From: Proteobacteria bacterium UBA1844 | GTDB taxonomy: Bacteria > Pseudomonadota > Gammaproteobacteria > Steroidobacterales > Woeseiaceae | Reading direction: 5' to 3' | DNA: 28,625 bases | Assembly (NCBI GenBank): GCA_002338615.1 | Contig: DDIS01000055.1 | Span: 36,786 to 65,410, forward strand | In this document: positions 1,758 to 24,887 of the stretch, piece by piece | Layout of the letters: each line of letters opens with the position of its first letter | Position numbering within the stretch: the first letter of the stretch is position 1 | Notes under the pieces: model-generated | What the model was told of the DNA's origin: nothing | The model's database searches: none | The model's input: the letters and a program-made list of their open reading frames with translations, nothing else | Position numbers and translations under genes: made by a program

Positions 1758-3509
1758 ATGGGCGCATTCCTGTACATTCGACGGCCGGCACCAAGCGAGC
1801 AGGCCGCTCAAGATTCCGTGGCACAGCGCTCCATTCTGCAGATGCAGTCGCGTGGCCTGCAGCACAAAGCACTGCTTGCGCGTAATGGTTTTGACTTGCA
1901 CATTTACTCCAAGCGACGCTTTGAAACCGAAAACGTTCTCGAATTCGAGAACGGTAGTTTCATCGTCGCAACAGGCACGCTTATCTACCGCAATCGAATC
2001 GGCAATGCTGCTCTTGCCGCGTTATTCGAAGACTTCACGCGTGAACGCCTGACGTTTGAGAATGCGCTTGGCCATTTCGCGGTGTGGATCTACCACGCAG
2101 GCCGCCTGAGCCTGTTCACAGATTATCAGGGCATGTACCAGGTCTACCGGGATGAAACCTGGGGCCTCATATCCAGTTCCTTTCTTGCGGTGCATGCCGC
2201 GTGCAAGACACGCACGCCCAGTGCGCAGGAAATTTACGAATACCTGTGTTTTTCCCACTACTACGGCAACCAGACGATTATCAAGGAAGTCTCCCGGCTT
2301 GATGAGCGCTTTATCCATCAACTGGTCCCCGGGCATTCGGAAACTCTGAAACGAATCCGTTTACCCGAATTTGATCCGCAAGCAGATTTCGACGCCCAGG
2401 TCGAGCGCACGCATGAGCTGCTTGGCAATTATTTCGGTGCGTTGGCGGCTGCTTTTGGCAATGATCAGTCGCTGGGGCTTACCGGCGGCTACGACAGTCG
2501 CTTGACGCTTGCCTGCCTGCGTCATTGTGGCGTCAGCCCACGGGTGTATGTGCAGGGCCCCGACAGCTCCATTGATGTCCGGATCGCGAAGGCAGTTGCT
2601 GCCGCGGGAAACTTCAAGATAGACCACGAACCGGATGCAGCAATGCCTGCATTCACCCGCGATGAATTTGCGGCCCGTTTGCAATCTGCCTACCATTATA
2701 TTGACGGCTTTAATCCTGCCGGCCTGTTCAACAGCTGGTCGCTTAGCGCCAACGAGCGCAGCCGGGTGCCGCGACCGGAGCGGCTGCGTTTGTACGGTAT
2801 GGCGGGCGAGATTTACCGGCGCAATCTGCCGCTTGCAAACCGCCCATGCACTATTGAGAGGTTTCTTACGGTGCAGGCCGACAAAGCAGATTACTCGTCA
2901 TTCACAGACTCTTTTGACAAGCGCGGGTTTTTCCGGGCTGTTGGCGCCAAGAATGTGGCTGCGATGCAGCTGGACGCACGTCGCTTGACGCCGGAGCAAA
3001 CCGAACTCAGCTACCCGCATTTTCGCCTTGCGAGGAACTCCGGCTGGCAAATGAGTGCGCAGAATGAACGAGCGCATGCGCTCGTTCCTTATGGTGAGCC
3101 GGCATTGAGCTACGCCAGCGGCGGCATCCGGATGGAATTTCGTGATCTTGGGCGCTTTGAAGCGGCGCTCATTCAGCGTGCAGACCCGGTTCTCGCGGCA
3201 GTAACGTCTGCCTACGGGCATGCTTTCAGTGAAGCGCCCGGACTAAAAAGGCGCTTGCGTACGAGCTTGTTACGCGCGGTTCCGGTGGCCGCACGTCCGT
3301 TGATGTATCGACTTCGAGCCAAGCGGCGACAGCCGCCTGATCGAGCGATATTTCAGCGGGCCGACTACCTGTCCGCAATTTTTCCCGATGGGTTCCCGCA
3401 CGTGCGGCCGCTGGTTAACGTAAACGAAATAAAAGATGCGGCAATGCTAAGCCGTGCACTGACGGTGGAATTGATCCTGGACGGACGGTTCGCCTGCCAG
3501 CCTGCCTGA
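1758..3509 (+). CDS. Asparagine synthetase-like protein lacking the glutaminase cysteine
   Basis: A 583-residue protein with the two-part layout of class B asparagine synthetases. An Ntn-hydrolase-like N-terminal half (about 1-200) is followed by an ATP-pyrophosphatase domain with a PP-loop, LTGGYDSR, at 241-248 (family form SGGxDS). The N-terminus reads MGAFLYI: the Cys at position 2 that forms the glutaminase nucleophile is absent, so it should not release ammonia from glutamine. Such proteins in polysaccharide loci are thought to amidate or otherwise modify carboxyl groups by ATP activation, but no specific substrate can be read here. AAGGAG lies 9 bases before the ATG. It follows the GT4 gene by 21 bases, as a likely operon partner. 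A lasso-peptide cyclase is a distant alternative; no precursor or protease gene is nearby. Confidence 0.82.
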   Translation: MGAFLYIRRPAPSEQAAQDSVAQRSILQMQSRGLQHKALLARNGFDLHIYSKRRFETENVLEFENGSFIVATGTLIYRNRIGNAALAALFEDFTRERLTFENALGHFAVWIYHAGRLSLFTDYQGMYQVYRDETWGLISSSFLAVHAACKTRTPSAQEIYEYLCFSHYYGNQTIIKEVSRLDERFIHQLVPGHSETLKRIRLPEFDPQADFDAQVERTHELLGNYFGALAAAFGNDQSLGLTGGYDSRLTLACLRHCGVSPRVYVQGPDSSIDVRIAKAVAAAGNFKIDHEPDAAMPAFTRDEFAARLQSAYHYIDGFNPAGLFNSWSLSANERSRVPRPERLRLYGMAGEIYRRNLPLANRPCTIERFLTVQADKADYSSFTDSFDKRGFFRAVGAKNVAAMQLDARRLTPEQTELSYPHFRLARNSGWQMSAQNERAHALVPYGEPALSYASGGIRMEFRDLGRFEAALIQRADPVLAAVTSAYGHAFSEAPGLKRRLRTSLLRAVPVAARPLMYRLRAKRRQPPDRAIFQRADYLSAIFPDGFPHVRPLVNVNEIKDAAMLSRALTVELILDGRFACQPA

Positions 3510-3633
3510 TGTCGCGGCAACGAAACCGCTGAACACAACGCGTCCGCAACGCACGCCCGCCAAGGGGTGCGAACAAATCTCGTCGCTGGCATCCGAAAAC
3601 AAGACTTGCTTCACGGTTTTTGACATCCACGGC

Positions 3634-3646
3634 GTCACAATGTGAC
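3634..3646. repeat. 13-base palindrome upstream of the riboswitch
   Basis: GTCACAATGTGAC is a perfect 6-1-6 inverted repeat, about 110 bases upstream of the riboswitch and 60-90 bases upstream of the candidate -10 elements. It could be a protein-binding operator for that promoter. The half-sites are in the opposite order to a CRP site (TGTGA-N6-TCACA), so CRP is not proposed. The rest of 3510-3700 shows no gene or other clear element. Confidence 0.35.
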
Positions 3647-3702
3647 CTAACGATAAGTCTTTCTGCGGCCAAGGATGACGGCGAAAGAGGCGACAAATCG
3701 TT

Positions 3703-3730
3703 TATAATCAACAATTTAGGAAATTATACT
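3703..3730 (+). promoter_or_regulatory. Candidate sigma-70 -10 elements for the riboswitch transcript
   Basis: Two -10-like hexamers lie in an AT-rich stretch before the riboswitch: TATAAT at 3703-3708 and TATACT at 3725-3730. The second would start transcription near 3737, about 20 bases before the aptamer. Neither has a convincing -35 hexamer at 16-18 bases, so an activator (perhaps through the palindrome at 3634-3646) or an extended element may be needed. Confidence 0.45.
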
Positions 3731-3757
3731 AAAGTGTTGATGAATTAGGAATTTCAG

Positions 3758-3847
3758 ATACAGAAAGGCAAACCGATCGAAAGGTCGGGACGCAAAGCCA
3801 CCGGTTTACGGGCTATGAGCCTATGACAGCGGGGTTGCCGGTTTGAT
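3758..3847 (+). promoter_or_regulatory. Cyclic di-GMP-I (GEMM-I) riboswitch aptamer
   Basis: The stretch matches the GEMM-I consensus step by step. The P1 arm GGCAA (3767-3771) pairs with TTGCC (3835-3839). A hairpin CCGATC-GAAA-GGTCGG (3773-3788) carries the GNRA tetraloop. It is followed by the invariant GGGACGCAAAGCC (3787-3799), a second hairpin with a TATG receptor-like segment, and GCGGGGTTGCC. By alignment to the Vibrio Vc2 aptamer from memory, the ligand contacts are G20 = 3768, A47 = 3795 and C92 = 3838. The G at position 20 favours c-di-GMP over the cGAMP-binding GEMM-Ib variant, which has A. About 160 bases of leader follow before the lipoprotein start at 4010. The expression platform is not obvious: CGTTAA/TTAACG (3903-3908/3920-3925) is a weak hairpin, and a run of T at about 3953-3957 lacks a strong stem. 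Confidence 0.93.
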
Positions 3848-4009
3848 CATCGTGTTGCGAGCTAAGTACCTTCTATATAGTCCACGCGACCATCGTCAAA
3901 TACGTTAATTAGCCCTGTTTTAACGGCTGCGTTCACGATTAAAGTGCGCTAGTTTTTATCTGCGCGTCGACGGTTTGGCCTTGCTGATACAAGAGCAGGA
4001 GCCATTTGG

Positions 4010-5977
4010 ATGAAGGGAACTCGTCGCGTCGCGTACGGCATGATTGCCGCCATCAGCAGCATCGTACTCGGCGGCTGTCTGTCGAAGGGGGAGGCAGATG
4101 ATCCGTACGGATTGTTCGTTGTAGAGCACAAGCAGGAAGTTTCAATATCCGGCAGTGTTGGCGACGGCCCGCTGGCAAATTCCGATCTCAGTGTGTCGGC
4201 GGTCGACGGTAACTCCCTGGCCGAGGGCAAGAGTGACGAGAAAGCCGGCTACTCAATGACATTCTACGCACCGGTCAAGGGCTATCCATTAATTATTACA
4301 GCGTCGGGCGGCAAGGATCTCGTTACCAATCGCGCACCGGATTTTGCGCTGCAGGGTGCGGTTATTTCATCCAGCGCAGTTGCGACCGCCAATATCAACC
4401 CGTTTTCAACGCTGGCGATCGAGATGGCCAAGGATCTGAACGGTGGCCTGACGACCGCGAATCTCGCGCGCGCGGAAGAGGTAGTCACCGTAGCGCTAAA
4501 CAGCGGGCTCTCCACGCTGGTCGATTCCGGTCCCATCGCAACTCCTATCGACGAAAGAAATATTGCCGAAATCGTGATGGCTTCCGAAACCCTCTCCGAA
4601 ATCATCAGGCGTAGCAGCGACGCATTGAACTCGGCGGGAGAAGCAACGACTGCTGAGCGAGTCATCGAGTCACTTGGTGCGGACCTCATCGACGGAGTCA
4701 TTGAAGGTAACGGTGGCGCGCGCGCCGATGGAAGAATCTCGGCCGCGGTAATTGCCGCGAGTGCCCAGGTGTTGCTCGAATCCATGAGCCACACGTTGCA
4801 TGTCGATGGCATTGATGCAACAGACGGTATGCAATATGCGATCAGCGTTGTATCGCCCAATCCGGCTGAGCCGGCATTGAGTACCATGACACCGGGCACC
4901 GAGATGGTGGAGCAGTGGAAAGCGGCTTTGTTCGCCGTCGCGTCGGTCAGCGATGACCCGGATATTTTACAACTGGCCGCCGCGGCCGATGGCGTCGTGC
5001 CGGGCATGGCTGCGGCAGATATCCGGGCAATGATCTCCGATAGCCATCGCAGTGCGCTCTACCAGGCGTTGAACAAGATCGCGGCTGGGCCGCCATCGAT
5101 GGTTGCCGCAGTCAATTCAGTAGCGCGCACGGGCGGCGGGCAGATTGTGACTGCCAACCGGGCGCCGACAATTTCCGGAAGCCCGCAAAAATCGATTCGC
5201 ATTGGAGAGCAGTACGATTTCCAGCCGAAAGTCAGCGACCTGGATGGAGATGAGTTGAGTTTCAGCGTTCAGGGCAAGCCAGGCTGGCTGAAATTTGAAA
5301 CGAAAACAGGCCGCTTGTCGGGCGCGCCGACCAACGCTGACACAGGCGTGCACGCGGGCATCATCGTTTCCGTGTCGGATGGGCAGGCCAGCAGTAATGT
5401 TGGACCATTTTCAATTACGGTCGCGGGTGCAGATTCGGCGCCGAGAATTTCCGGATCGCCGCCTGCGGACGCAATCGTTGGCGTGCGGTACCAGTTCAAG
5501 CCGACAGCAAGCGACCCGAACGGCGGTCCCATGCGCTTCTCGATCGAGAACAAGCCGACCTGGGCGAATTTCGATGTCCTGACGGGTTTGCTTGCGGGTA
5601 CGCCCGGAGAAAGTGACGTCGGCGCGGACCGGAACATAAGGATTTCAGTCACCGATGGCCATTCCACTGCGTACCTTGCGGCGTTCAGTATCGAAGTGAA
5701 GTCGGCGGGCAAATCCGCCGGCCGAGTAACGGTCAGCTGGACTCCGCCGACGCGCAACGAGGACGGTACCGTGCTCAAGAACCTGGCAGGCTACCGTATC
5801 TACTGGCGCAAAGAGGCCGCAACGTTCAATGATTCAATGATGATCGGCAACGCCAACGTTACGCATGTGCAGATTGATGACCTGGTACCCGGCAAATACG
5901 AAATTGTCGTCACGGCGTTCAATGACCTTGGTACAGAGAGCAGGTTCTCGAATATGGTCAGCAAGGTTGCTGACTAG
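4010..5977 (+). CDS. Riboswitch-controlled surface lipoprotein with Ig-like (He_PIG) and fibronectin III-like domains
   Basis: A 655-residue predicted lipoprotein. The signal peptide ends in the lipobox L20-G-G-C23, so Cys23 should be lipidated. Residues 45-110 look like a small beta domain (SISGSVGDGPLANSDL). Residues 120-370 are alanine-rich and probably helical, with no family recognised. Two 'putative Ig' (He_PIG) repeats follow at about 385-472 and 477-564, each with the sequence P.ISGSP...YQF.P...D.....F.I..KP.W..F...TG.L.G.P. The C-terminus (571-655) is a fibronectin III-like domain with the AGYRIYWR strand. AGGAG lies 8 bases before the ATG. The domains suggest an adhesin or matrix protein, which fits control by a c-di-GMP riboswitch 160 bases upstream. 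There is no PEP-CTERM or LPXTG anchor. Function is inferred from architecture only. Confidence 0.85.
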   Translation: MKGTRRVAYGMIAAISSIVLGGCLSKGEADDPYGLFVVEHKQEVSISGSVGDGPLANSDLSVSAVDGNSLAEGKSDEKAGYSMTFYAPVKGYPLIITASGGKDLVTNRAPDFALQGAVISSSAVATANINPFSTLAIEMAKDLNGGLTTANLARAEEVVTVALNSGLSTLVDSGPIATPIDERNIAEIVMASETLSEIIRRSSDALNSAGEATTAERVIESLGADLIDGVIEGNGGARADGRISAAVIAASAQVLLESMSHTLHVDGIDATDGMQYAISVVSPNPAEPALSTMTPGTEMVEQWKAALFAVASVSDDPDILQLAAAADGVVPGMAAADIRAMISDSHRSALYQALNKIAAGPPSMVAAVNSVARTGGGQIVTANRAPTISGSPQKSIRIGEQYDFQPKVSDLDGDELSFSVQGKPGWLKFETKTGRLSGAPTNADTGVHAGIIVSVSDGQASSNVGPFSITVAGADSAPRISGSPPADAIVGVRYQFKPTASDPNGGPMRFSIENKPTWANFDVLTGLLAGTPGESDVGADRNIRISVTDGHSTAYLAAFSIEVKSAGKSAGRVTVSWTPPTRNEDGTVLKNLAGYRIYWRKEAATFNDSMMIGNANVTHVQIDDLVPGKYEIVVTAFNDLGTESRFSNMVSKVAD

Positions 5978-6005
5978 TGTCGTGCGCGAATTGGTCGTAC
6001 AGGGC

Positions 6006-6470
6006 CTAGGTTTGCGACTGCAGGTAGTTCTGCACGCCTATTTTTTCAATCAGCCCGAGCTGGGTCTCCAGCCAGTCGATGTGTTCTTCTTCTGACTCGA
6101 GAATATTGTCGAATAGTTCGCGACTGACGTAATCCTGCACGCTTTCGCAACTGGCTATCGCCTTGCGCAGATCCTTGACGCCATCCAGTTCCATAGCCAG
6201 GTCGCACTTGAGGGCTTCCGGTGCATCTTCGCCGATGCGCAAACGACCGAGGTCCTGCAGATTGGGCAGCCCCTCGAGAAACAGGATGCGTTCAATAAGT
6301 GCGTCCGCGTGTTTCATTTCGTCGATGGACTCGTTGTATTCCTGCTCGCCGAGTTTGCCGAGACCCCAGTCCTTGAACATGCGCGAATGCAGGAAGTACT
6401 GGTTGATTGCCGTCAACTCATTTTTCAAGACTCGGTTGAGATGCTCGAGAACTGCTTTATCGCCCTGCAT
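6006..6470 (-). CDS. bfr: Bacterioferritin
   Basis: A 154-residue protein that aligns along its whole length with E. coli Bfr (about 158 residues). The diiron ferroxidase ligands are all present: E18, E51, H54, E94, E127 and H130. The haem ligand M52, in SIDEMKHAD, is also present. The C-terminus ends with QNYLQSQ as in the family. The product should assemble a 24-subunit haem-containing shell that oxidises Fe(II) and stores iron in the cytoplasm. GGAG lies 7 bases before the ATG. The gene follows bfd by 122 bases on the same strand and may share its iron-responsive promoter. Its 3' end faces the lipoprotein gene, 28 bases away, with no obvious terminator between them. The 6538-6560 gap has a weak ATTCCGC/GCGGAAT hairpin of unknown meaning. 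Confidence 0.96.
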
Positions 6471-7814: not shown

Positions 7815-7855
7815 CGGGGAGCGGCCGAATGTGACCCGCCCCCTGCAATGTGCGC

Positions 7856-7890
7856 CCGTCTCGTGGCACCATTGGCTGACCACGAGACGG
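7856..7890 (+). repeat. 11-base-pair inverted repeat in the leader of the PrsR-type regulator
   Basis: CCGTCTCGTGG (7856-7866) and CCACGAGACGG (7880-7890) are perfect reverse complements around a 13-base loop. The hairpin ends 14 bases before the regulator's ATG at 7905, in the 90-base gap after the dehydrogenase stop. No T-run follows, so it is not a normal intrinsic terminator. As RNA it would sit next to the ribosome binding region; as DNA it could be an operator. Confidence 0.7.
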
Positions 7891-7904
7891 ATAATTGCAG
7901 TGAA

Positions 7905-9287
<1,383 letters not shown>

Positions 9288-12936: not shown

Positions 12937-13947
12937 TTAACCGGGCCAATACGCGCTGGGATCACCGGCCGCAATTTTACGTTCCCAGGCGAGGCTGGTG
13001 CGGACAATCGTGTCCAGGTCGTCGAATTTCGGGGTCCAGCCCAGCGTATTGCGAATGCGCGTGGCAACGGCAACCAGTTCTGGCGGGTCGCCCGCACGGC
13101 GGGGCTCCTCAGTGATCGTAAGCGCTGTACCGTTGGCCTCGCTGACTGCATCCAGGACTTCCCGTACGCTGTAGCCATGTCCGTAACCACAATTCAGCGT
13201 GGTTGACTCGCCACCGTCACGCAGATACCTGAGCGCGTCGATGTGCGCCGTCGCAAGATCCTCGACATGGATATAGTCGCGCAATCCCGTACCGTCCGGC
13301 GTCGGGTAGTCGGTGCCGAAAATTGACACCCGCTCTCGCTTGCCGACAGCGGCCTCACAGGCCACCTTGACCAGCAGCGTGGCGAGCGGCGTCGACTGGC
13401 CGATGCTCCCGCCCGGCTCACAACCGGCGACATTGAAGTAGCGCAGCACCACGTAGTTCGGTCCGCCTGCGATGCCAAGGTCGCGCAGCATCCATTCGGT
13501 CATCAGTTTCGATGTGCCATAGGGATTGATAGGCACTGTGGGTGAATCTTCGGCCGCTTTACCGCCGGGTGGCAAACCGTAAACAGCGGCGGTGGAGGAA
13601 AAAACAACATGTCTGACACCGTGCCGGTGCGCCACTTCAAGCAGCGTACGGCTATTGGCCGTGTTGTTGCGATAGTACTTCAAAGGATCGGCGACAGACT
13701 CGGGAACAATCGTGTGTGCCGCGAAATGCATGAGCGTGTCGATATCGTGGGCCGCAAAAATCGATTCCAGTAATCCGGCGTCTCCCGTATCGCCAACGAT
13801 CAGTTCACCGCTTGTAACCGCCGCACGGAACCCGGTACTCAGGTTGTCCAGCGAGATGACATCTTCGCCTTGCTGACCCAGTTGCCGCAAAACGTGGCTG
13901 CCGATGTAGCCGGCGCCACCAGTTAGTAATATCTTTTTGTTTTTCAT
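12937..13947 (-). CDS. galE: UDP-glucose 4-epimerase
   Basis: A 336-residue extended SDR. The NAD-binding loop TGGAGYIGS is at 9-17, with LMHFAAHTIVPESV at 72-85, FSSTAAVYG at 116-124 and the catalytic YGTSK at 143-147. GLRDYIHVEDLA is also typical of GalE. E. coli GalE has Ser at the third catalytic position (S124); here the aligned residue is Thr119, a substitution I recall in other GalE proteins. It interconverts UDP-glucose and UDP-galactose, supplying donors to glycosyltransferases such as those at the left of the window. ATG at 13947 is chosen; a TTG one codon upstream is less likely. A TATAGT -10-like hexamer at about 14027 on the minus strand and an inverted repeat at 13975-14006 lie in its leader. 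It may be transcribed into glrK-qseG-glrR. Confidence 0.95.
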   Translation of the reverse strand: MKNKKILLTGGAGYIGSHVLRQLGQQGEDVISLDNLSTGFRAAVTSGELIVGDTGDAGLLESIFAAHDIDTLMHFAAHTIVPESVADPLKYYRNNTANSRTLLEVAHRHGVRHVVFSSTAAVYGLPPGGKAAEDSPTVPINPYGTSKLMTEWMLRDLGIAGGPNYVVLRYFNVAGCEPGGSIGQSTPLATLLVKVACEAAVGKRERVSIFGTDYPTPDGTGLRDYIHVEDLATAHIDALRYLRDGGESTTLNCGYGHGYSVREVLDAVSEANGTALTITEEPRRAGDPPELVAVATRIRNTLGWTPKFDDLDTIVRTSLAWERKIAAGDPSAYWPG

Positions 13948-13974
13948 CAAGTTTTTGCTCTAATTCATCAAAGC

Positions 13975-17074: not shown

Positions 17075-17243
17075 TCCAATGCTATGGCGCGGGAAATTAT
17101 TCCCAAACTAATTTCCAGAATCTGCGTTATTTCACAGACGTTAAACGGTAGTACGCCTATCGTTGCACCAATACTGCCGGGACACCGTACCAACAGAGGT
17201 GCGTCCCGACAGTCATTATTTGTGCGATTCGGGCATTTGCGGA

Positions 17244-20200
17244 ATGGAAAAAAGTCTGCGGGACAAGATAAGGAATGCGACAAGCAGCAGCGATGCACGC
17301 GAGTCGGATTTCATTGAGCTGTTGCGCCTGGTCGACGCACATTACGACCGGATGGAAGCGACCATTACGCAGTCCGTCATCACTCAGACGATGAACGCGC
17401 GGAGCCTGACAGGTAACACGCCCATTGATGCTTTGTTCGATAGTGTCACGGAGGCGTTGTTGTCTGTTGACGAGGCGGGCGTTATCCGGGTGTGCAACAA
17501 AGTGTGTACACGCTACTTCGGTCTGAGCAAAGAACAGCTGGTTGGCAGTCATATCCAAAAAATTATACCGACAGCCACGGGTACTTCCTTCACTGAATTC
17601 CTGCAACCCTATGTTGCCAATCTCGACGACACCGAAGTTGACTATTCCGCGGGCGAGGTCGAAGCACGTCGCGCCAACGGCCACCGGTTCATAGCCGAGA
17701 TTAACGCGAGCGGCCTGGAAGGAACTGAAGGAAAAGTCTACGTCATCAGTTTGCGGGATGTCACACTGCGACGCGACGCGGAGCGGGCACTGAAAGAGAA
17801 CGAAGAGCGCTATCGCGCGCTGGTGCAATACGCACCTGAGGCCATTGTTGTGCTCGATGTGAAAGACAACAAGTTCGTTGATGCCAATGACAAGGCTTGT
17901 GAACTCTTTAATTTGTCACGCGCTCGCCTGCTTGCCATCGGTCCAGAGGTGGTCAGCCCGGAAATGCAACCAGACGGTACGCCATCCTTTGGCATCCATC
18001 GCGGCATCGTCGACCGGGCACTGCAGGGCGAGCATCCCACGTTTGAGTGGACGCACAAGGACTCGACCGGCAAGCTGTTTCCCTGCGAGGTGCGATTTAG
18101 TCGCATGCCATCGGATCAGCGAATCCTGCTCCGGGTGAGCATCAGCAATATTGAAGAGCGCAAACGCAATGAAGCGTTCGGGTTTGCGCAAAACAAGATT
18201 CTCGAGATGATCGCTGCCAGCGCGCCGTACGATCGAACGCTGCGCGCAATCTGCCGCTTTGTTGAACGCATCAGTGACGACCTGACGGCGGCAATCATGG
18301 TGTTGGATGGCGACGGAAAAACGCTGAATGTCGAACAGGCACCAGGTCTCGATGATGCCATGCGCCTGTGCCTCGACTTCGTGCCTGTTGCCGCCGACAG
18401 CCTGACATGTGGCAGAGCAGTGTACGAAGGCAGCGACCGCTTCACGGCAGACGTCGCGCTCGAAACCGGGTGGGGAGTCCATATCAACCTGCTCGAGTCT
18501 TCGGGCTATGTCGCAAACTGGTCGTTCCTCGTGCACGGCGAAGGGGGCAAGATCATCGGCACGCTGGATGTGTTCCTGAAAAGTTCGCGGCAGCCGGGTA
18601 CGGACGAGCTCGATAAGTTAGGTCGCATGGCGCGGCTCGCCGGCATTGCCATCAAGCGCCAGCAGGACGAGGAGAGACTACGCAGCAGTGAAGCGCGCTA
18701 TCGTGGCTTGTTTGAAAATGTTATCGACGGTGTGTACATCGCGTCGCGTGACGGCGAGATCTCTACCGCGAATCCAGCGCTTGTGGAGATGCTCGGGTAC
18801 GACAGCGTCGAAGCGCTCAAGGCAGCGGGTCGCACGACGAGGATGTACGTTAACCCGGTGGACCGCGAACGCGTATTCGCGCGCCTCGAGACCGAAGGCT
18901 TTGTGAAGAACTTCGAGTACCGCCTGCGCCGCAAGGATGGCAGTGAAATAGTCGTGCTGGAGAATTCGCGCGCGCTTTATGACGATAGCGGCGCAGTCAT
19001 CGGCCATGAAGGAACAATGACAGATATCACGGATCGCAAGCGTGCGGAAACCCGCGTATTCGAAGAAAAGGAGCGTGCGCAGGTTACCCTGCAGTCAATC
19101 GGCGACGGGGTGATTACCACGGATGCGAGTGGCAGGATCGACTACATCAATCCGGTTGCGCAGGACCTGACTGGTTGGGATGTGCGCAGTGCGACAGGCA
19201 CGCCTGTAAACGACATCATGATGATTATCAATGAGCACACCCGCGCAACGGTAGAGAATCCGGTTTTACGATGTCTCAAGGATGGCCGTGTAACCACGCT
19301 CGCAGAAAACTCCGTCCTGATTACGCGCAAAGGCGACGAAATACCGATCCAGGACTCCGCAGCGCCAATACGGGACCGTATCGGTAATATTATTGGCTCG
19401 GTCATGGTGTTCCATGACACGAGCAAGGAATCCCGGCTTTTCCGGCAGTTGAGCTACCAGGCCGCCCATGATTCCCTCACGGGTCTGATTAATCGCAAGG
19501 AATTCGAAAGCCGGCTGGTCGCAAGCTTCGATGCACTAAAGAACGATCCGGAGCAGGCGCACGCGTTGCTGTACCTGGATCTCGATCAGTTTAAAGTTGT
19601 GAACGATACGTTCGGTCATACCGCCGGTGACGAACTGCTGCGCCAGTTGGCGAATATAGTGCAACTGGAAGTGCGGTCCAGCGATGTTTTTGCGCGTCTC
19701 GGTGGCGATGAATTCGGTATCCTGCTCGAACGTTGTTCGGAAAAGCAGGCCATGGATGTGGCTGAGGCAATTCGTGGCGCGATCGAAGGGTTCCGCTTCG
19801 AATGGCAGGATGCGTTCACGACCATACGGGCTTCCATCGGTGTAGTGATGGTGACCTCCGACGTGGATGAGGTTGCATCGCTGATGAGTTCCGCGGACGT
19901 TGCGTGCTACTCGGCCAAGGACAAGGGTCGCAACCAGGTCCATCTGTACAAGGGTAGCGACGCAACCGTCCGACACGAGGAAATGAAGTGGGTGTCGCGG
20001 ATTACCAGTGCGGTTGAGGAAGAACGCCTGGAGCTCTATTTTCAACCTATTATCGGCATTAATGCGGACTATGGGGCGGCTCGCGGCCACTACGAATTGC
20101 TGCTTCGAATGCGCGATGAAAATGGCGAGATCGTGAACCCCAACCAGTTCATTCCATCGGCCGAACGCTATAACCTGATGTCAACGCTGGACCGCTGGGT

Positions 20201-20783
20201 CATTCACAAAGCTCTGACGGATCTTGCGGATCGCAGCAGCGCCCCGGAAGCACGCTATACGCTTGCCATTAACCTGTCAGGCACTTCGCTAAGTGAAGAC
20301 CGATTCCTCGAGTATGTCGTTGACGAGTTGCGCAAGCATAAGTTGCCGAATGGAGCGATCTGTTTTGAAATTACCGAGACTGCGGCAATCTCAAATCTGT
20401 CCCGAGTTGTGCATTTCATGCGCGCCATGAAAGAGCTTGGATGCAAATTTTCGCTCGACGATTTCGGGAGCGGTTTGTCGTCCTTTACCTATCTCAAGAA
20501 CCTGCCCGTGGATTACCTGAAGATTGACGGACAGTTTGTCAGCAACGTCGTAGATAACAGCGTCGATGAGAGCATGGTGCGAGCCATTAGTGAGGTGGGT
20601 CACGCGATGGGTATCGAAATGATTGCAGAGCGTGTCGAAACCAGGCAGGTACTCGAAAAGCTGGGCACGCTCGGGGTTGAATTCGCGCAGGGCTACTACA
20701 TTGCGCGGCCCTGCTCCGTGGCGAAGTTCGAACCCTGGAACAGCGAGGGTGGTAACGCCGCGCCAGTCGAATTGCTGGCCTAG
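17244..20783 (+). CDS. Multi-PAS/GAF GGDEF-EAL cyclic-di-GMP protein
   Basis: An 1179-residue protein without transmembrane segments. Order: short helical N-terminus; PAS (about 64-176); PAS (189-305); GAF-like (313-472); PAS (485-600); PAS (612-727); GGDEF (735-905); EAL (915-1165). The active-site motif is GGDEF (820-824) with the product-binding I-site RSSD (811-814) five residues before it, so the cyclase half looks competent and feedback-inhibited. The EAL half keeps its catalytic Glu951 in ELLLRM (ELL instead of EAL), INLSG, EITE, DDFGSG (1072-1077) and LKIDG, so phosphodiesterase activity is also plausible. ATG 17244 is chosen over an upstream TTG (17163). The product should be a cytoplasmic sensor making or degrading c-di-GMP in response to PAS/GAF ligands that cannot be read from sequence. 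The nearest known output here is the riboswitch at 3758. Confidence 0.94.
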   Translation: MEKSLRDKIRNATSSSDARESDFIELLRLVDAHYDRMEATITQSVITQTMNARSLTGNTPIDALFDSVTEALLSVDEAGVIRVCNKVCTRYFGLSKEQLVGSHIQKIIPTATGTSFTEFLQPYVANLDDTEVDYSAGEVEARRANGHRFIAEINASGLEGTEGKVYVISLRDVTLRRDAERALKENEERYRALVQYAPEAIVVLDVKDNKFVDANDKACELFNLSRARLLAIGPEVVSPEMQPDGTPSFGIHRGIVDRALQGEHPTFEWTHKDSTGKLFPCEVRFSRMPSDQRILLRVSISNIEERKRNEAFGFAQNKILEMIAASAPYDRTLRAICRFVERISDDLTAAIMVLDGDGKTLNVEQAPGLDDAMRLCLDFVPVAADSLTCGRAVYEGSDRFTADVALETGWGVHINLLESSGYVANWSFLVHGEGGKIIGTLDVFLKSSRQPGTDELDKLGRMARLAGIAIKRQQDEERLRSSEARYRGLFENVIDGVYIASRDGEISTANPALVEMLGYDSVEALKAAGRTTRMYVNPVDRERVFARLETEGFVKNFEYRLRRKDGSEIVVLENSRALYDDSGAVIGHEGTMTDITDRKRAETRVFEEKERAQVTLQSIGDGVITTDASGRIDYINPVAQDLTGWDVRSATGTPVNDIMMIINEHTRATVENPVLRCLKDGRVTTLAENSVLITRKGDEIPIQDSAAPIRDRIGNIIGSVMVFHDTSKESRLFRQLSYQAAHDSLTGLINRKEFESRLVASFDALKNDPEQAHALLYLDLDQFKVVNDTFGHTAGDELLRQLANIVQLEVRSSDVFARLGGDEFGILLERCSEKQAMDVAEAIRGAIEGFRFEWQDAFTTIRASIGVVMVTSDVDEVASLMSSADVACYSAKDKGRNQVHLYKGSDATVRHEEMKWVSRITSAVEEERLELYFQPIIGINADYGAARGHYELLLRMRDENGEIVNPNQFIPSAERYNLMSTLDRWVIHKALTDLADRSSAPEARYTLAINLSGTSLSEDRFLEYVVDELRKHKLPNGAICFEITETAAISNLSRVVHFMRAMKELGCKFSLDDFGSGLSSFTYLKNLPVDYLKIDGQFVSNVVDNSVDESMVRAISEVGHAMGIEMIAERVETRQVLEKLGTLGVEFAQGYYIARPCSVAKFEPWNSEGGNAAPVELLA

Positions 20784-22912: not shown

Positions 22913-22967
22913 GAATTCCCCGGATGAGTCAAAGAATTGACATAACATCGCCGGGTGTGGCGTGAGC

Positions 22968-24887
22968 ATGGATTGGACAGGCCTGGTTCTGCCGCCCATT
23001 TTTGCCATTGCGGCGCTGAGCTACGTCGGCCTCGCACTATTCGTGTCGCGTTCGTCGCCGCGCAGCATCATTGGCGTACTACTTTTTCTAAACGGCATTC
23101 TGATTGCAGGCAACGCCTTTACCTACGTTACCAGCGATCTTGGGTTGTACGGTATTGGCCGCACTCTGACCTTTTTTGCCGCCAGTTTCATGCCGGTTGC
23201 ATTTTATTCGATCTATCGCCAGTTCACTGGCTCGCTGCCAGGGCCGTTGCTGCTTGCGTTGTTGTCAGTCATTCCGGTTCTTACCACCTTATTCGCGCTA
23301 ACCGATCCGCTGCACAACATAATCTGGGACACGGTGACCACGGCCGATAATATCGGTTTCACAGACCTTACAGAGCACTTCTGGTTCAACCGCGTTCACG
23401 GGCCTTTTGCCTACGGACTGTTCGGCTATTCGGTTCTGGCTCTGGCCGCAAAAATGTCCAGCATTGCGTCAGCGCATCGACGTACCGTTGGCATCCTGGT
23501 TGCCTGTGCCACGCTGCCGTTTGCGGTCAGTGTAGCCAATAACTTTCTCGGTTTCGGGCCGGCGGACTTTCCGTTCCTGTCCTTGACACTGGTTGCGCTA
23601 TTGCCACTCTTTGCTTACGCAAGCGTTGCATTGCGCATGTACGATTTCAGTCCGGTTGACTACCAGACCCTGTTCGATCACGTTCGGGACCCCGTCATCG
23701 TACTCGACAACCGCGAGCGTATTATTTGCGCGAATCGCAAAGCAACTGAACTTTTAGGTAAGAAAGAATCCGCATTGCTGGGGCAGCGATTATGGCAGGA
23801 CGTACCTGCAGCGCGCGACATTCTTGGTCGGGCAACTGAACTTGATCTTACGCAGACATTGAGTCTCGATGGCAACCAAAGCTACGAAGTGAGTGTGGCG
23901 CCACTCAGGGATCGCCGAGGTGTACGCCAGGGCGCGGTGGTTGTATGCCGCGATGTAACGGAACGACGCAAAGCCCTGGCGCAACTGGCCGACAGCGAGC
24001 ACCTGATTCGCACACTGATTGAAACCTCTTCCAATGGCATCCTGCGATTCGCTCTGGATCCTGGCCGGGAACAACCCCGGTTCCGATGCGTGTTTGCAAA
24101 CCGGGCCGCTGAAGCCTACCTCGGTGAAGTGGGAACATCGCTCGTCGGGACCTGGCTGGATGCACTACCGGTGCTGGATCCTGAGCGACTAACGGCGCAT
24201 TTTTGCTCGACCACCAATGCCGGGGTTCCGGTCAGTTTTGAAATGGCGGCCACTGTACAGGAACAGGAATCGTGGCTGCGGATCGTAGGCGAACCAGTGG
24301 GCGACGATATGTCCGTCACGTTGATCGACATCACCAAGCGCAAACACAATGAACAGCGCATGCTCGATGAGGCACTGCGCGACCCGTTGACGGGTGTCCT
24401 CAACCGGCGCGGCTTTGAAAGCGCCGCGGCAAGCTGTATTCGCTCAAGTGCGCAGGGGGCGGTTCTGTATTTGGACCTGAATCAGTTCAAGAGTATTAAC
24501 GACCGTTTCGGACACCAGGCGGGCGACGCGCTGCTGAAAGCATTTGGACATCGCCTGGGCTATTGCCTGCGCACGGAGGACATACTGGGCCGCCTTGGCG
24601 GCGACGAGTTCGCGATCGTGCTGCCCGGTGTTTCGGTCGCTGACGCGAAACACATTGCGGAACGGCTCGTCAGCACGGCAGCAGATGCCTATATCATTCA
24701 GGGCAAGGAAGTTCGATGCTCTGCGAGTGTCGGGATTGCACTGCTGCCACAACATGGTCATGAGCTCTGGCATCTCATCAGCGTCGCAGATGCCGCCATG
24801 TATAATGCAAAAAATATTTCCGATGCAGATGCGGCCAACGATCGCGCGGCCTACGTCGATGCCGCTACAGCGGAGGTACGACGCTGA
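22968..24887 (+). CDS. Membrane diguanylate cyclase: 7TM-PAS-PAS-GGDEF
   Basis: A 639-residue protein. Residues 5-225 hold about seven hydrophobic helices like the 'histidine kinase N-terminal 7TM' sensor domain. They are followed by a PAS domain (about 232-335, DPVIVLDNRERIICANRKA), a second PAS-like region (345-465, SSNGILRFALD) and a GGDEF domain (about 475-620). GGDEF is intact (544-548), with the I-site RTED (535-538) five residues before it, so it should synthesise c-di-GMP and be inhibited by it. There is no EAL domain. ATG 22968 is used; a GTG two codons upstream is possible, and neither has a strong Shine-Dalgarno. The 3' end overlaps the convergent lipoprotein gene by 23 bases. Confidence 0.93.
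   Translation: MDWTGLVLPPIFAIAALSYVGLALFVSRSSPRSIIGVLLFLNGILIAGNAFTYVTSDLGLYGIGRTLTFFAASFMPVAFYSIYRQFTGSLPGPLLLALLSVIPVLTTLFALTDPLHNIIWDTVTTADNIGFTDLTEHFWFNRVHGPFAYGLFGYSVLALAAKMSSIASAHRRTVGILVACATLPFAVSVANNFLGFGPADFPFLSLTLVALLPLFAYASVALRMYDFSPVDYQTLFDHVRDPVIVLDNRERIICANRKATELLGKKESALLGQRLWQDVPAARDILGRATELDLTQTLSLDGNQSYEVSVAPLRDRRGVRQGAVVVCRDVTERRKALAQLADSEHLIRTLIETSSNGILRFALDPGREQPRFRCVFANRAAEAYLGEVGTSLVGTWLDALPVLDPERLTAHFCSTTNAGVPVSFEMAATVQEQESWLRIVGEPVGDDMSVTLIDITKRKHNEQRMLDEALRDPLTGVLNRRGFESAAASCIRSSAQGAVLYLDLNQFKSINDRFGHQAGDALLKAFGHRLGYCLRTEDILGRLGGDEFAIVLPGVSVADAKHIAERLVSTAADAYIIQGKEVRCSASVGIALLPQHGHELWHLISVADAAMYNAKNISDADAANDRAAYVDAATAEVRR

Follow-up and report, generated by a model that had tools for sequence, protein, structure and literature searches.

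What does a cyclic-di-GMP-type RNA do in front of a large surface-protein gene in a member of the Woeseiaceae, and does the pairing recur among relatives? The locus lies in a 28,625-nt stretch of DNA from Proteobacteria bacterium UBA1844 (contig DDIS01000055.1), analysed in full and called the window here; the riboswitch, leader and lipoprotein features given below are all on its forward strand. Run at gathering scores over the whole window, Rfam cmscan gave one hit, to RF01051 at 3757–3842; it scored 82.1 bits (gathering score 35; E 5.6e-15) and spanned model positions 1–87 of 87. The covariance search proposed in the earlier note thus confirms, from sequence, a c-di-GMP-I (GEMM-I) riboswitch; the aptamer, first described as near-complete, is in fact whole, and begins one base before the position given there (3758). 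The 93.6 bits that it scores with R1, a covariance model which we built from 34 aptamers, are not independent, as the window's own aptamer is among them.

Ligand class could be read from the aptamer core strand GGCAAACC (3767–3774). Its first G, at 3767, stands at what we take to be position G20 of the Vc2 aptamer, where a G would mark the c-di-GMP type and not the cGAMP type. The equivalent position is G in 37 of the 38 linked aptamers, the one exception being an A before the short gene of G015 (L089). The GEMM-Ib (cGAMP) class was rejected for the window aptamer on account of this G, and exchanges at this position (A20G, G20A) alter selectivity (PMC6456294, PMC6274999).

After a spacer of 167 nt, close to the 160 or so first estimated, the aptamer is followed by the ATG (4010) of a gene (4010–5977) encoding 655 amino acids. 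The product is a predicted lipoprotein, with a signal peptide (4010–4078) whose lipobox, VLGGC, was read by eye and contains Cys23, the sole Cys of the protein. Both domain families proposed for its C-terminal half score above their Pfam cut-offs: He_PIG (PF05345) in two stretches (E 2.1e-16, 60.6 bits, cut-off 24), at residues 386–472 (5165–5425) and about 477–564 (5438–5701, bounds estimated from the family alignment), and fn3 (PF00041; E 3.5e-07, 30.8 bits, cut-off 25) at residues 569–650 (5714–5959). The preceding N domain (336 aa, residues 41–376; 4130–5137) appears to be a transthyretin-like beta-sandwich with helices, and had been described as unassigned and Ala-rich. It indeed has no match in Pfam or NCBIfam, but its Ala richness is mild, at 16.7% against 13.1% in the whole protein.

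Among 28 family members, weak matches were to CarboxypepD_reg (12), bMG3 (6) and Big_6 (6), and a nickel-transport model of NCBIfam was matched by seven members (best E 0.0011). The best PDB sequence match of the N domain was a hypothetical glycoside hydrolase (E 0.02 over 48 residues). With the full-length model, the best 50 Foldseek rows were chains of Ig/Fn3 type or of other beta-sandwich adhesion proteins, SraP among them. The closest solved structure to the N domain was the non-heme domain of Geobacter PgcA, at a Z that helical models can reach by common arrangement. Geobacter belongs to another phylum than the window organism. Identity with a PgcA-type cytochrome is ruled out, because the 655-aa protein contains a single Cys and lacks CXXCH haem motifs. 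The same fact weighs against a non-adhesin role at the surface, whether in contact with metals or minerals, as for PgcA, or in envelope or polysaccharide secretion; Ig/Fn3 stalks are, moreover, typical of adhesive surface proteins, and we regard such a role as possible but less likely.

The surroundings of the gene bear on the same question. As the earlier note had it, polysaccharide genes adjoin: a glycosyltransferase lies at 588–1736, with more glycosyltransferase-like ORFs, seen by eye, upstream on the same contig (L012), GalE lies at 12937–13950, and PrsR, the sigma-54-type response regulator of PEP-CTERM/exopolysaccharide systems, is encoded at 7848–9287 on the forward strand (TIGR02915, 706.4 bits, cut-off 502.6). 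Of the eight N-domain genes, four (those of the window, G032, G015 and G027) have PrsR within 3 kb downstream, in G015 directly so; in G013 it lies directly downstream of a short-type gene. With PrsR 1.9 kb downstream and glycosyltransferases around it, the window gene resembles the PEP-CTERM/exosortase exopolysaccharide locus with PrsK/PrsR, as far as the available parts of its description go (PMC1569441). It differs in that the lipoprotein has a lipobox anchor (by eye) and in that no exosortase matched TIGR02602 or PF09721 in its own genome, which is 93.8% complete and may lack the gene for that reason; an exosortase was found in 20 of the 60 genomes of the set. From domains and neighbours together we infer a surface protein, adhesive or linked to the matrix, that belongs with a PrsR-type exopolysaccharide locus.

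The linkage of aptamer and lipoprotein, which the earlier note made a touchstone of its proposal, is conserved in relatives. Across 60 related genomes, R1 placed an aptamer directly upstream, on the same strand, of all eight genes with the full N-domain/He_PIG/Fn3 architecture (tandem aptamers before two of them), and 17 of 51 N-domain loci from named genomes had one, six of the 17 being contigs already in the 60-genome set. Among short He_PIG-Fn3 genes the aptamer preceded 20 of 33, a 21st having a weak 37.5-bit R1 match to which Rfam gave no confirmation, and among He_PIG-only genes it preceded one of 17 (by gene type, Fisher p 5e-6 with the weak match counted). It was found before none of the four distinct small fn3-only genes with upstream sequence. 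The other genes of the fetched loci gave 1/399, a rough background only, because the loci were fetched for containing the family. A tree built from 53 N domains placed 15 aptamer-linked rows in the window's clade, where 15 of 16 members were linked, and four elsewhere; the aptamer label required four changes, compared with a mean of 15.9 after shuffling (0/500 as low). The aptamer, the gene and their recurrent linkage are matters of observation.

The linkage count comprises 69 rows, drawn from regions whose protein matches reach E 1e-13 or so, together with some weaker matches in the same stretches; long repeat proteins, matched at E values above roughly 1e-8, and the G024 pair, which is linked by coordinates, lie outside it. 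Genes with the upstream side cut (L086, L118, L122 and the first genes of L126 and L127) and both L124 rows, duplicates of L077, were omitted. L085, cut at its 3' end, was counted as a short type from a trace of Fn3, and for several He_PIG-only genes cut at the region edge the absence of Fn3 rests on the protein search. The Woeseiaceae themselves were represented in the genome search only by metagenome-assembled genomes.

How might the RNA act on the gene? A candidate sigma-70-like leader promoter (TTTATA-18-TATACT, 3701–3730, 9/12 consensus match) is weak, because four sites of such quality occur in 2.5 kb on both strands against 1.5 expected from shuffles. A sigma-54/PrsR promoter 5' of the aptamer was rejected as a general rule: in the 90 nt upstream, a near-perfect site (11/12) was present in only one of the 36 usable leaders, that of the own-genome paralogue L010, and the next-best score was 8. 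An intrinsic terminator as expression platform was likewise rejected for the window leader, since none of the five terminator-like sites of 3510–6010 lies within it (3843–4009).

A predicted Shine-Dalgarno (SD)-sequestering hairpin (3976–4004; SD AGGAG at 3997–4001) lies just before the AUG. While the whole 289-nt window leader is of ordinary stability (z −0.81), the 52-nt stretch 3964–4015 has an MFE of −17.8 kcal/mol (z −2.52), equalled in 4 of 200 shuffles. Over all 38 linked leaders, whose start codons a script chose by their distances from the SD and the lipobox, the 46 nt before the AUG plus 6 nt fold to −16.0 kcal/mol, against −10.9 in 73 control genes (p 2e-7). SD regions are unpaired at 0.38 in these leaders and at 0.50 in the controls (p 7e-5). 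Nineteen of the 38 form a hairpin set, selected because that structure is evident in them; in the remaining 19, folding is somewhat stronger than in controls (p 0.011) and SD access is the same (0.48, p 0.33). AUG access differed from controls in no leader set (p 0.08 or more). In 18 of the 19 hairpin leaders mean pairwise identity is 0.81 in the anti-SD arm, 0.48 in the SD arm and 0.40 upstream. Covariation support is weak, because RNAalifold on a MAFFT alignment of the 19 leaders gave four pairs, with two-sided changes in only one. Computation supports the SD-covering hairpin as a candidate expression platform, with predicted translational control. That the leader works mainly via transcription, by Rho-dependent or other termination, with the hairpin incidental, would fit its length (54–187 nt among linked leaders) and the half of the leaders without a clear hairpin, whose SD access equals that of controls. 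We consider this improbable, given a window leader free of intrinsic-terminator-like sites and a hairpin that is, over all 38 leaders, stronger than in control genes.

The direction of predicted translational control would depend on the anti-SD arm GGTTTGGC (3972–3979), the best complement to the core strand in the 167-nt leader, which could pair with either the SD side or the aptamer core at 3767–3774; just its final four bases lie inside the predicted hairpin stem. In the window the arm–core complement scores 7/8 (for this leader taken singly, shuffle p 0.10) and the ensemble probability of core–arm pairing is 0.65. Assessed one by one, only seven of the 36 leaders had complementarity at p < 0.05, and the window's was not one of these. 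Across the family, a core complement scoring 7 or more of 8 was found in 17 of 36 usable lipoprotein leaders, against none of 22 other GEMM-I sites searched over 170 nt 3' of the aptamer; 16 of the 17 lie between −38 and −32 relative to the AUG, the other at −45. A core-to-arm-region pairing probability above 0.3 was reached by 14 of 34 leaders and by 6 of 146 chimeric controls (p 7e-4). The median over the 34 is 0.02, and eight of the 19 hairpin leaders stay at 0.03 or below.

When the aptamer was removed in silico, 13 of the 34 usable leaders lost more than 0.05 of SD access and none gained access, as against 32 down and 21 up among the 146 chimeric controls. These folding calculations ignore tertiary contacts and kinetics, and the leaders are related rather than independent sequences. 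The sequence evidence favours c-di-GMP as an OFF signal, a direction that is the more likely one but uncertain. Without ligand, the anti-SD arm would pair with the core strand and release the SD, and translation would be on; with c-di-GMP, the core strand would be locked in the folded aptamer, so that the arm would close on the SD and translation would be off.

The opposite direction, in which c-di-GMP turns the lipoprotein on and the ligand-bound state opens the SD hairpin, agrees with the fact that matrix and adhesion are usually promoted by c-di-GMP. The three surface-protein precedents, Bc2/Cap (PMC4933901), Vc1/GbpA (PMC4744006) and pgcA (PMC6456294), are, in the portions available, all ON switches and speak against the OFF reading. 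With a narrower SD definition, removal of the aptamer raised SD access in 3 of 37 leaders and lowered it in 12. However, by eye we saw no strand that could expose the SD once the aptamer has folded, and the wider definition gave no rise at all, so we rate the ON direction as possible but the lesser candidate. The reading that we prefer, and hold to be somewhat probable, is that a c-di-GMP-I riboswitch controls translation, off with ligand, of an outer-membrane lipoprotein with a transthyretin-like/helical head on an Ig-Ig-Fn3 stalk, which most likely acts at the cell surface, within or upon the exopolysaccharide matrix.

How new is such a system? The surface system, first put forward as a candidate for an undescribed one, is not wholly so: GEMM-regulated Fn3 surface proteins are on record in Geobacter (Gbem_1796/1798/1799, KN400_1971; PMC2996986, PMC13194489), where the gene of an Fn3 surface protein follows a GEMM aptamer, an arrangement present three times in one genome, and PgcA is a possible structural relative of the N domain. 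The likeness noted is one of gene arrangement; the accessible parts of these reports describe no SD hairpin or core-strand platform, and many Geobacter GEMM-I switches favour cGAMP (PMC6456294), the window's being predicted to be of the c-di-GMP type. PgcA of G. sulfurreducens is a triheme lipocytochrome under a cGAMP-type switch (PMC5732950, PMC6456294), with 10-fold lower pgcA expression without the cGAMP synthase (PMC6456294), whereas the window lipoprotein has no haem motif. In Bacillus thuringiensis, Bc2 is likewise a c-di-GMP-I riboswitch before a single adhesive surface protein, the collagen adhesion protein Cap (PMC4933901), but it is an antiterminator ON switch and Cap is cell-wall-anchored, in contrast to the SD hairpin and the lack of a terminator-like site here. 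In Vibrio cholerae, Vc1 likewise consists of a GEMM-I aptamer with a long leader, there preceding the gene of a factor for surface colonisation, and its c-di-GMP sensing augments GbpA; GbpA, however, is a secreted chitin-binding protein, no terminator or anti-SD was apparent between Vc1 and gbpA, and the mechanism of Vc1 and Vc2 was still unknown as of 2016 (PMC4744006). What is new here is the candidate SD-hairpin expression platform. A search of the open PMC literature, mostly at search level, surfaced neither this lineage nor this platform, and nothing on Woeseiaceae and c-di-GMP.

A bolder and more tentative proposal, which we would not yet call probable, is a strand-mimic translational switch: the arm would resemble the aptamer's 3' strand and pair with the ligand-binding core, c-di-GMP would decide SD closure, a family of exopolysaccharide-locus lipoproteins would be off at high c-di-GMP, and a PgcA-like head would be common to surface lipoproteins under GEMM control in two phyla. 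Because the anti-SD arm is conserved and complementary to the core, a few reporter mutations could put the expression platform to a direct test, and a PgcA-like head in a haem-free protein could help explain the role of the PgcA non-heme domain. For the Woeseiaceae, the locus would connect c-di-GMP with a recurrent, uncharacterised family of surface proteins by way of RNA alone and, if the OFF direction is true, would do so contrary to the common rule that c-di-GMP promotes matrix proteins.

The only RNA match in the 28.6-kb window, when Rfam covariance models were run at gathering scores over its whole length, is a complete c-di-GMP-I (GEMM-I) aptamer at 3757–3842 (+), with a score of 82.1 bits (cut-off 35). 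This covariance check bears out the GEMM-I identity proposed in the earlier note, which had called the aptamer only ‘near-complete’, and the coordinates it gave for the aptamer and for the end of the downstream ORF hold to within one base. That ORF, the next after the aptamer (4010–5977 (+), 655 aa), encodes a signal peptide that by eye ends in the lipoprotein motif VLGGC, an N domain (residues 41–376), two He_PIG domains and one fn3; no curated family for the N domain was found in Pfam or NCBIfam.

Among 60 related genomes (including its own, G000), 30 matched the lipoprotein and 54 matched RF01051. We retrieved the loci of the stronger lipoprotein matches, apart from G024, and scanned 56 sources with our own covariance model, built from 34 aptamers. 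All eight genes with N domain, He_PIG and Fn3 (‘N-type’) have a same-strand aptamer immediately upstream, as do 20 of 33 short He_PIG-Fn3 genes (‘short-type’; plus one weak match) and one of 17 He_PIG-only genes. Among 399 other genes in these loci a single one, a small ORF within one of these leaders, has an aptamer within 500 nt. The linkage is thus conserved among relatives, and the riboswitch–lipoprotein unit is real. Aptamers stand in tandem before the gene in G046, G059, G005 and G058 (Rfam-confirmed) and, by our own model only, at L151, a locus from a named genome. In named genomes the N domain occurs at 51 loci, 17 with an aptamer (six being, by length, the same contigs as in the set just counted); these 17 include loci of Woeseiaceae MAGs and of Thioalkalivibrio sp. 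XN8. The scanned tube-worm symbiont, Sedimenticola and Pseudomonadales loci had none. When mapped onto a tree of 53 N domains, the aptamer label requires four changes (shuffled mean 15.9; none of 500 shuffles as low), at least three of them forced by well-supported branches. The window's well-supported clade is aptamer-linked in 15 of 16 cases, and four linked members fall outside it: L151, and L154, L077 and L152 within one group of four. These label changes indicate that the coupling was gained, lost or transferred on more than one occasion.

Many of the 38 leaders extracted (54–187 nt, start codons chosen by script) end like GGGUUGCCCGCCUG-loop-CAGGCAGGAGCACAACCC-AUG, where a hairpin covers the Shine–Dalgarno sequence (SD). 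Across all 38, folding around the SD was −16.0 versus −10.9 kcal/mol in 73 control genes having an SD (p 2e-7), and SD-region access was 0.38 versus 0.50 (p 7e-5). The 19 leaders that show no visible hairpin did not differ from controls in SD access (p 0.33). The window's hairpin stretch has a z of −2.52, with only half of the 8-base anti-SD arm (3972–3979) inside the predicted stem. Across the 19 aligned hairpin leaders, RNAalifold covariation support was weak. A search of the window leader for terminator-like sites found none. Translational control is the best reading of the leader. At L077 (3981–4032) and L078 (3775–3826), of the Thioalkalivibrio XN8/G046 type, the predicted hairpin takes in the start codon itself, through pairing of GGCCAUG with CAUGGCU (GUG in L078). 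This hairpin, without a core-complementary arm, appears to be a different solution behind tandem aptamers.

Were the arm to serve solely SD-side pairing, it should drift along with the SD side. Instead, in 18 of the 19 hairpin leaders, mean pairwise identity is 81% for the anti-SD arm, 48% for the SD-side arm and 40% upstream. Apart from a few mismatches, the anti-SD arm matches the reverse complement of GGCAAACC, the nearly invariant core of the aptamer. A core complement scoring at least 7/8 is present in 17 of the 36 lipoprotein leaders, in 16 cases 32–38 nt before the AUG, and none of the 22 other GEMM-I sites in this set of genomes has one; shuffle tests on single leaders reach p < 0.05 in only seven of the 36. 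In unconstrained ensembles, core and arm region pair with a probability above 0.3 in 14 of the 34 leaders versus six of 146 chimeric controls; the median over the leaders is 0.02, and pairing is at most 0.03 in eight of the 19 hairpin leaders. With the aptamer removed, as a proxy for a locked aptamer, SD access decreases in 13 of 34 leaders and increases in none (controls: 32 down and 21 up of 146); with the SD region defined more narrowly it falls in 12 and rises in three of 37. In the window itself core–arm pairing has a probability of 0.65, and removing the aptamer raises arm–SD pairing from 0.30 to 0.70. On this modelling, c-di-GMP is more likely an OFF signal.

The lipoprotein gene is surrounded by genes for a glycosyltransferase, a ferritin-like protein, an SDR, PrsR (TIGR02915, 706 bits), a second sigma-54 regulator, a histidine kinase and GalE. 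A 583-aa ORF (1758–3509), directly upstream in the polysaccharide region, matched nothing in Pfam or NCBIfam at an E-value of 0.01 or below. The riboswitch gene is followed, 11–19 kb downstream, by two c-di-GMP enzymes: a multi-PAS GGDEF-EAL (17163–20783) and a 7TM-PAS GGDEF (22962–24887). PrsR, described as a component of PEP-CTERM/exopolysaccharide systems (PMC1569441), lies less than 3 kb downstream of four of the eight N-type genes (window, G032, G015, G027) and adjoins a short-type gene in G013. It is on the same contig but ∼60 kb from the family gene in G046 and G059, on a different contig from the N-type gene in G012, and was looked for but not found in G022. Exosortases occur ∼10–55 kb from a family gene, on the same contig, in G005, G015, G021, G028, G046 and G059; a search of the window's own genome found none.

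The own genome has six GEMM-I matches above cut-off, the weakest at 37.3 bits. One (G000:C107, L005/L010), assigned to c-di-GMP-I-GGC when both Rfam families compete, lies before the gene of a short He_PIG-Fn3 lipoprotein that is paralogous to the C-terminal half of the window protein. Just upstream of this aptamer is a near-perfect (11/12) sigma-54 promoter, TGGCACACCCATTGCA (L010 ∼4377–4392), so the paralogue could be under PrsR as well as c-di-GMP. In G015, a genome of the window's own genus, the short lipoprotein gene on C21 has an aptamer (L089 5900–5986 (−), the same as L049) with A in place of G at G20, the base typical of cGAMP-type GEMM-Ib. At 12 of 23 non-lipoprotein GEMM-I sites examined, the product of the next gene starts like MNVVIFGKGFGKPRQ (L004 1501–1586 and L009 5279–6211, G000:C49; further L047, L048, L051, L054, L056, L058, L059, L060, L063, L064 and L067). 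The own-genome gene of this type encodes an M23 peptidase, with, by eye, an LpxC-like gene before it and a SecA-like gene after. Sites of this kind appear to form a second riboswitch regulon, distinct from the lipoprotein one and centred on a conserved cell-wall peptidase. Other own-genome sites lie between two similar tandem kelch-repeat proteins (L008 893–5301, G000:C83) and upstream of an FAD-binding/ALO-type oxidase (L007 5012–6625, G000:C56), where ∼8 nt separate the aptamer from the first ATG, leaving hardly any leader, and the frame is open through the aptamer, making the start ambiguous.

GEMM control of Fn3 surface proteins is described for Geobacter bemidjiensis, with triplicated genes, and noted for G. 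sulfurreducens KN400 (PMC2996986, PMC13194489); control of an adhesin by GEMM-I is established for Bc2/Cap, and sequester/anti-sequester platforms are a known type (PMC4933901). The pairing proposed in the earlier note stands, but as a surface system it is not wholly undescribed, given the Geobacter proteins reported in PMC2996986. The direction of control and the function of the protein are what we infer; the new parts of the unit are a candidate expression platform and an unclassified head domain.
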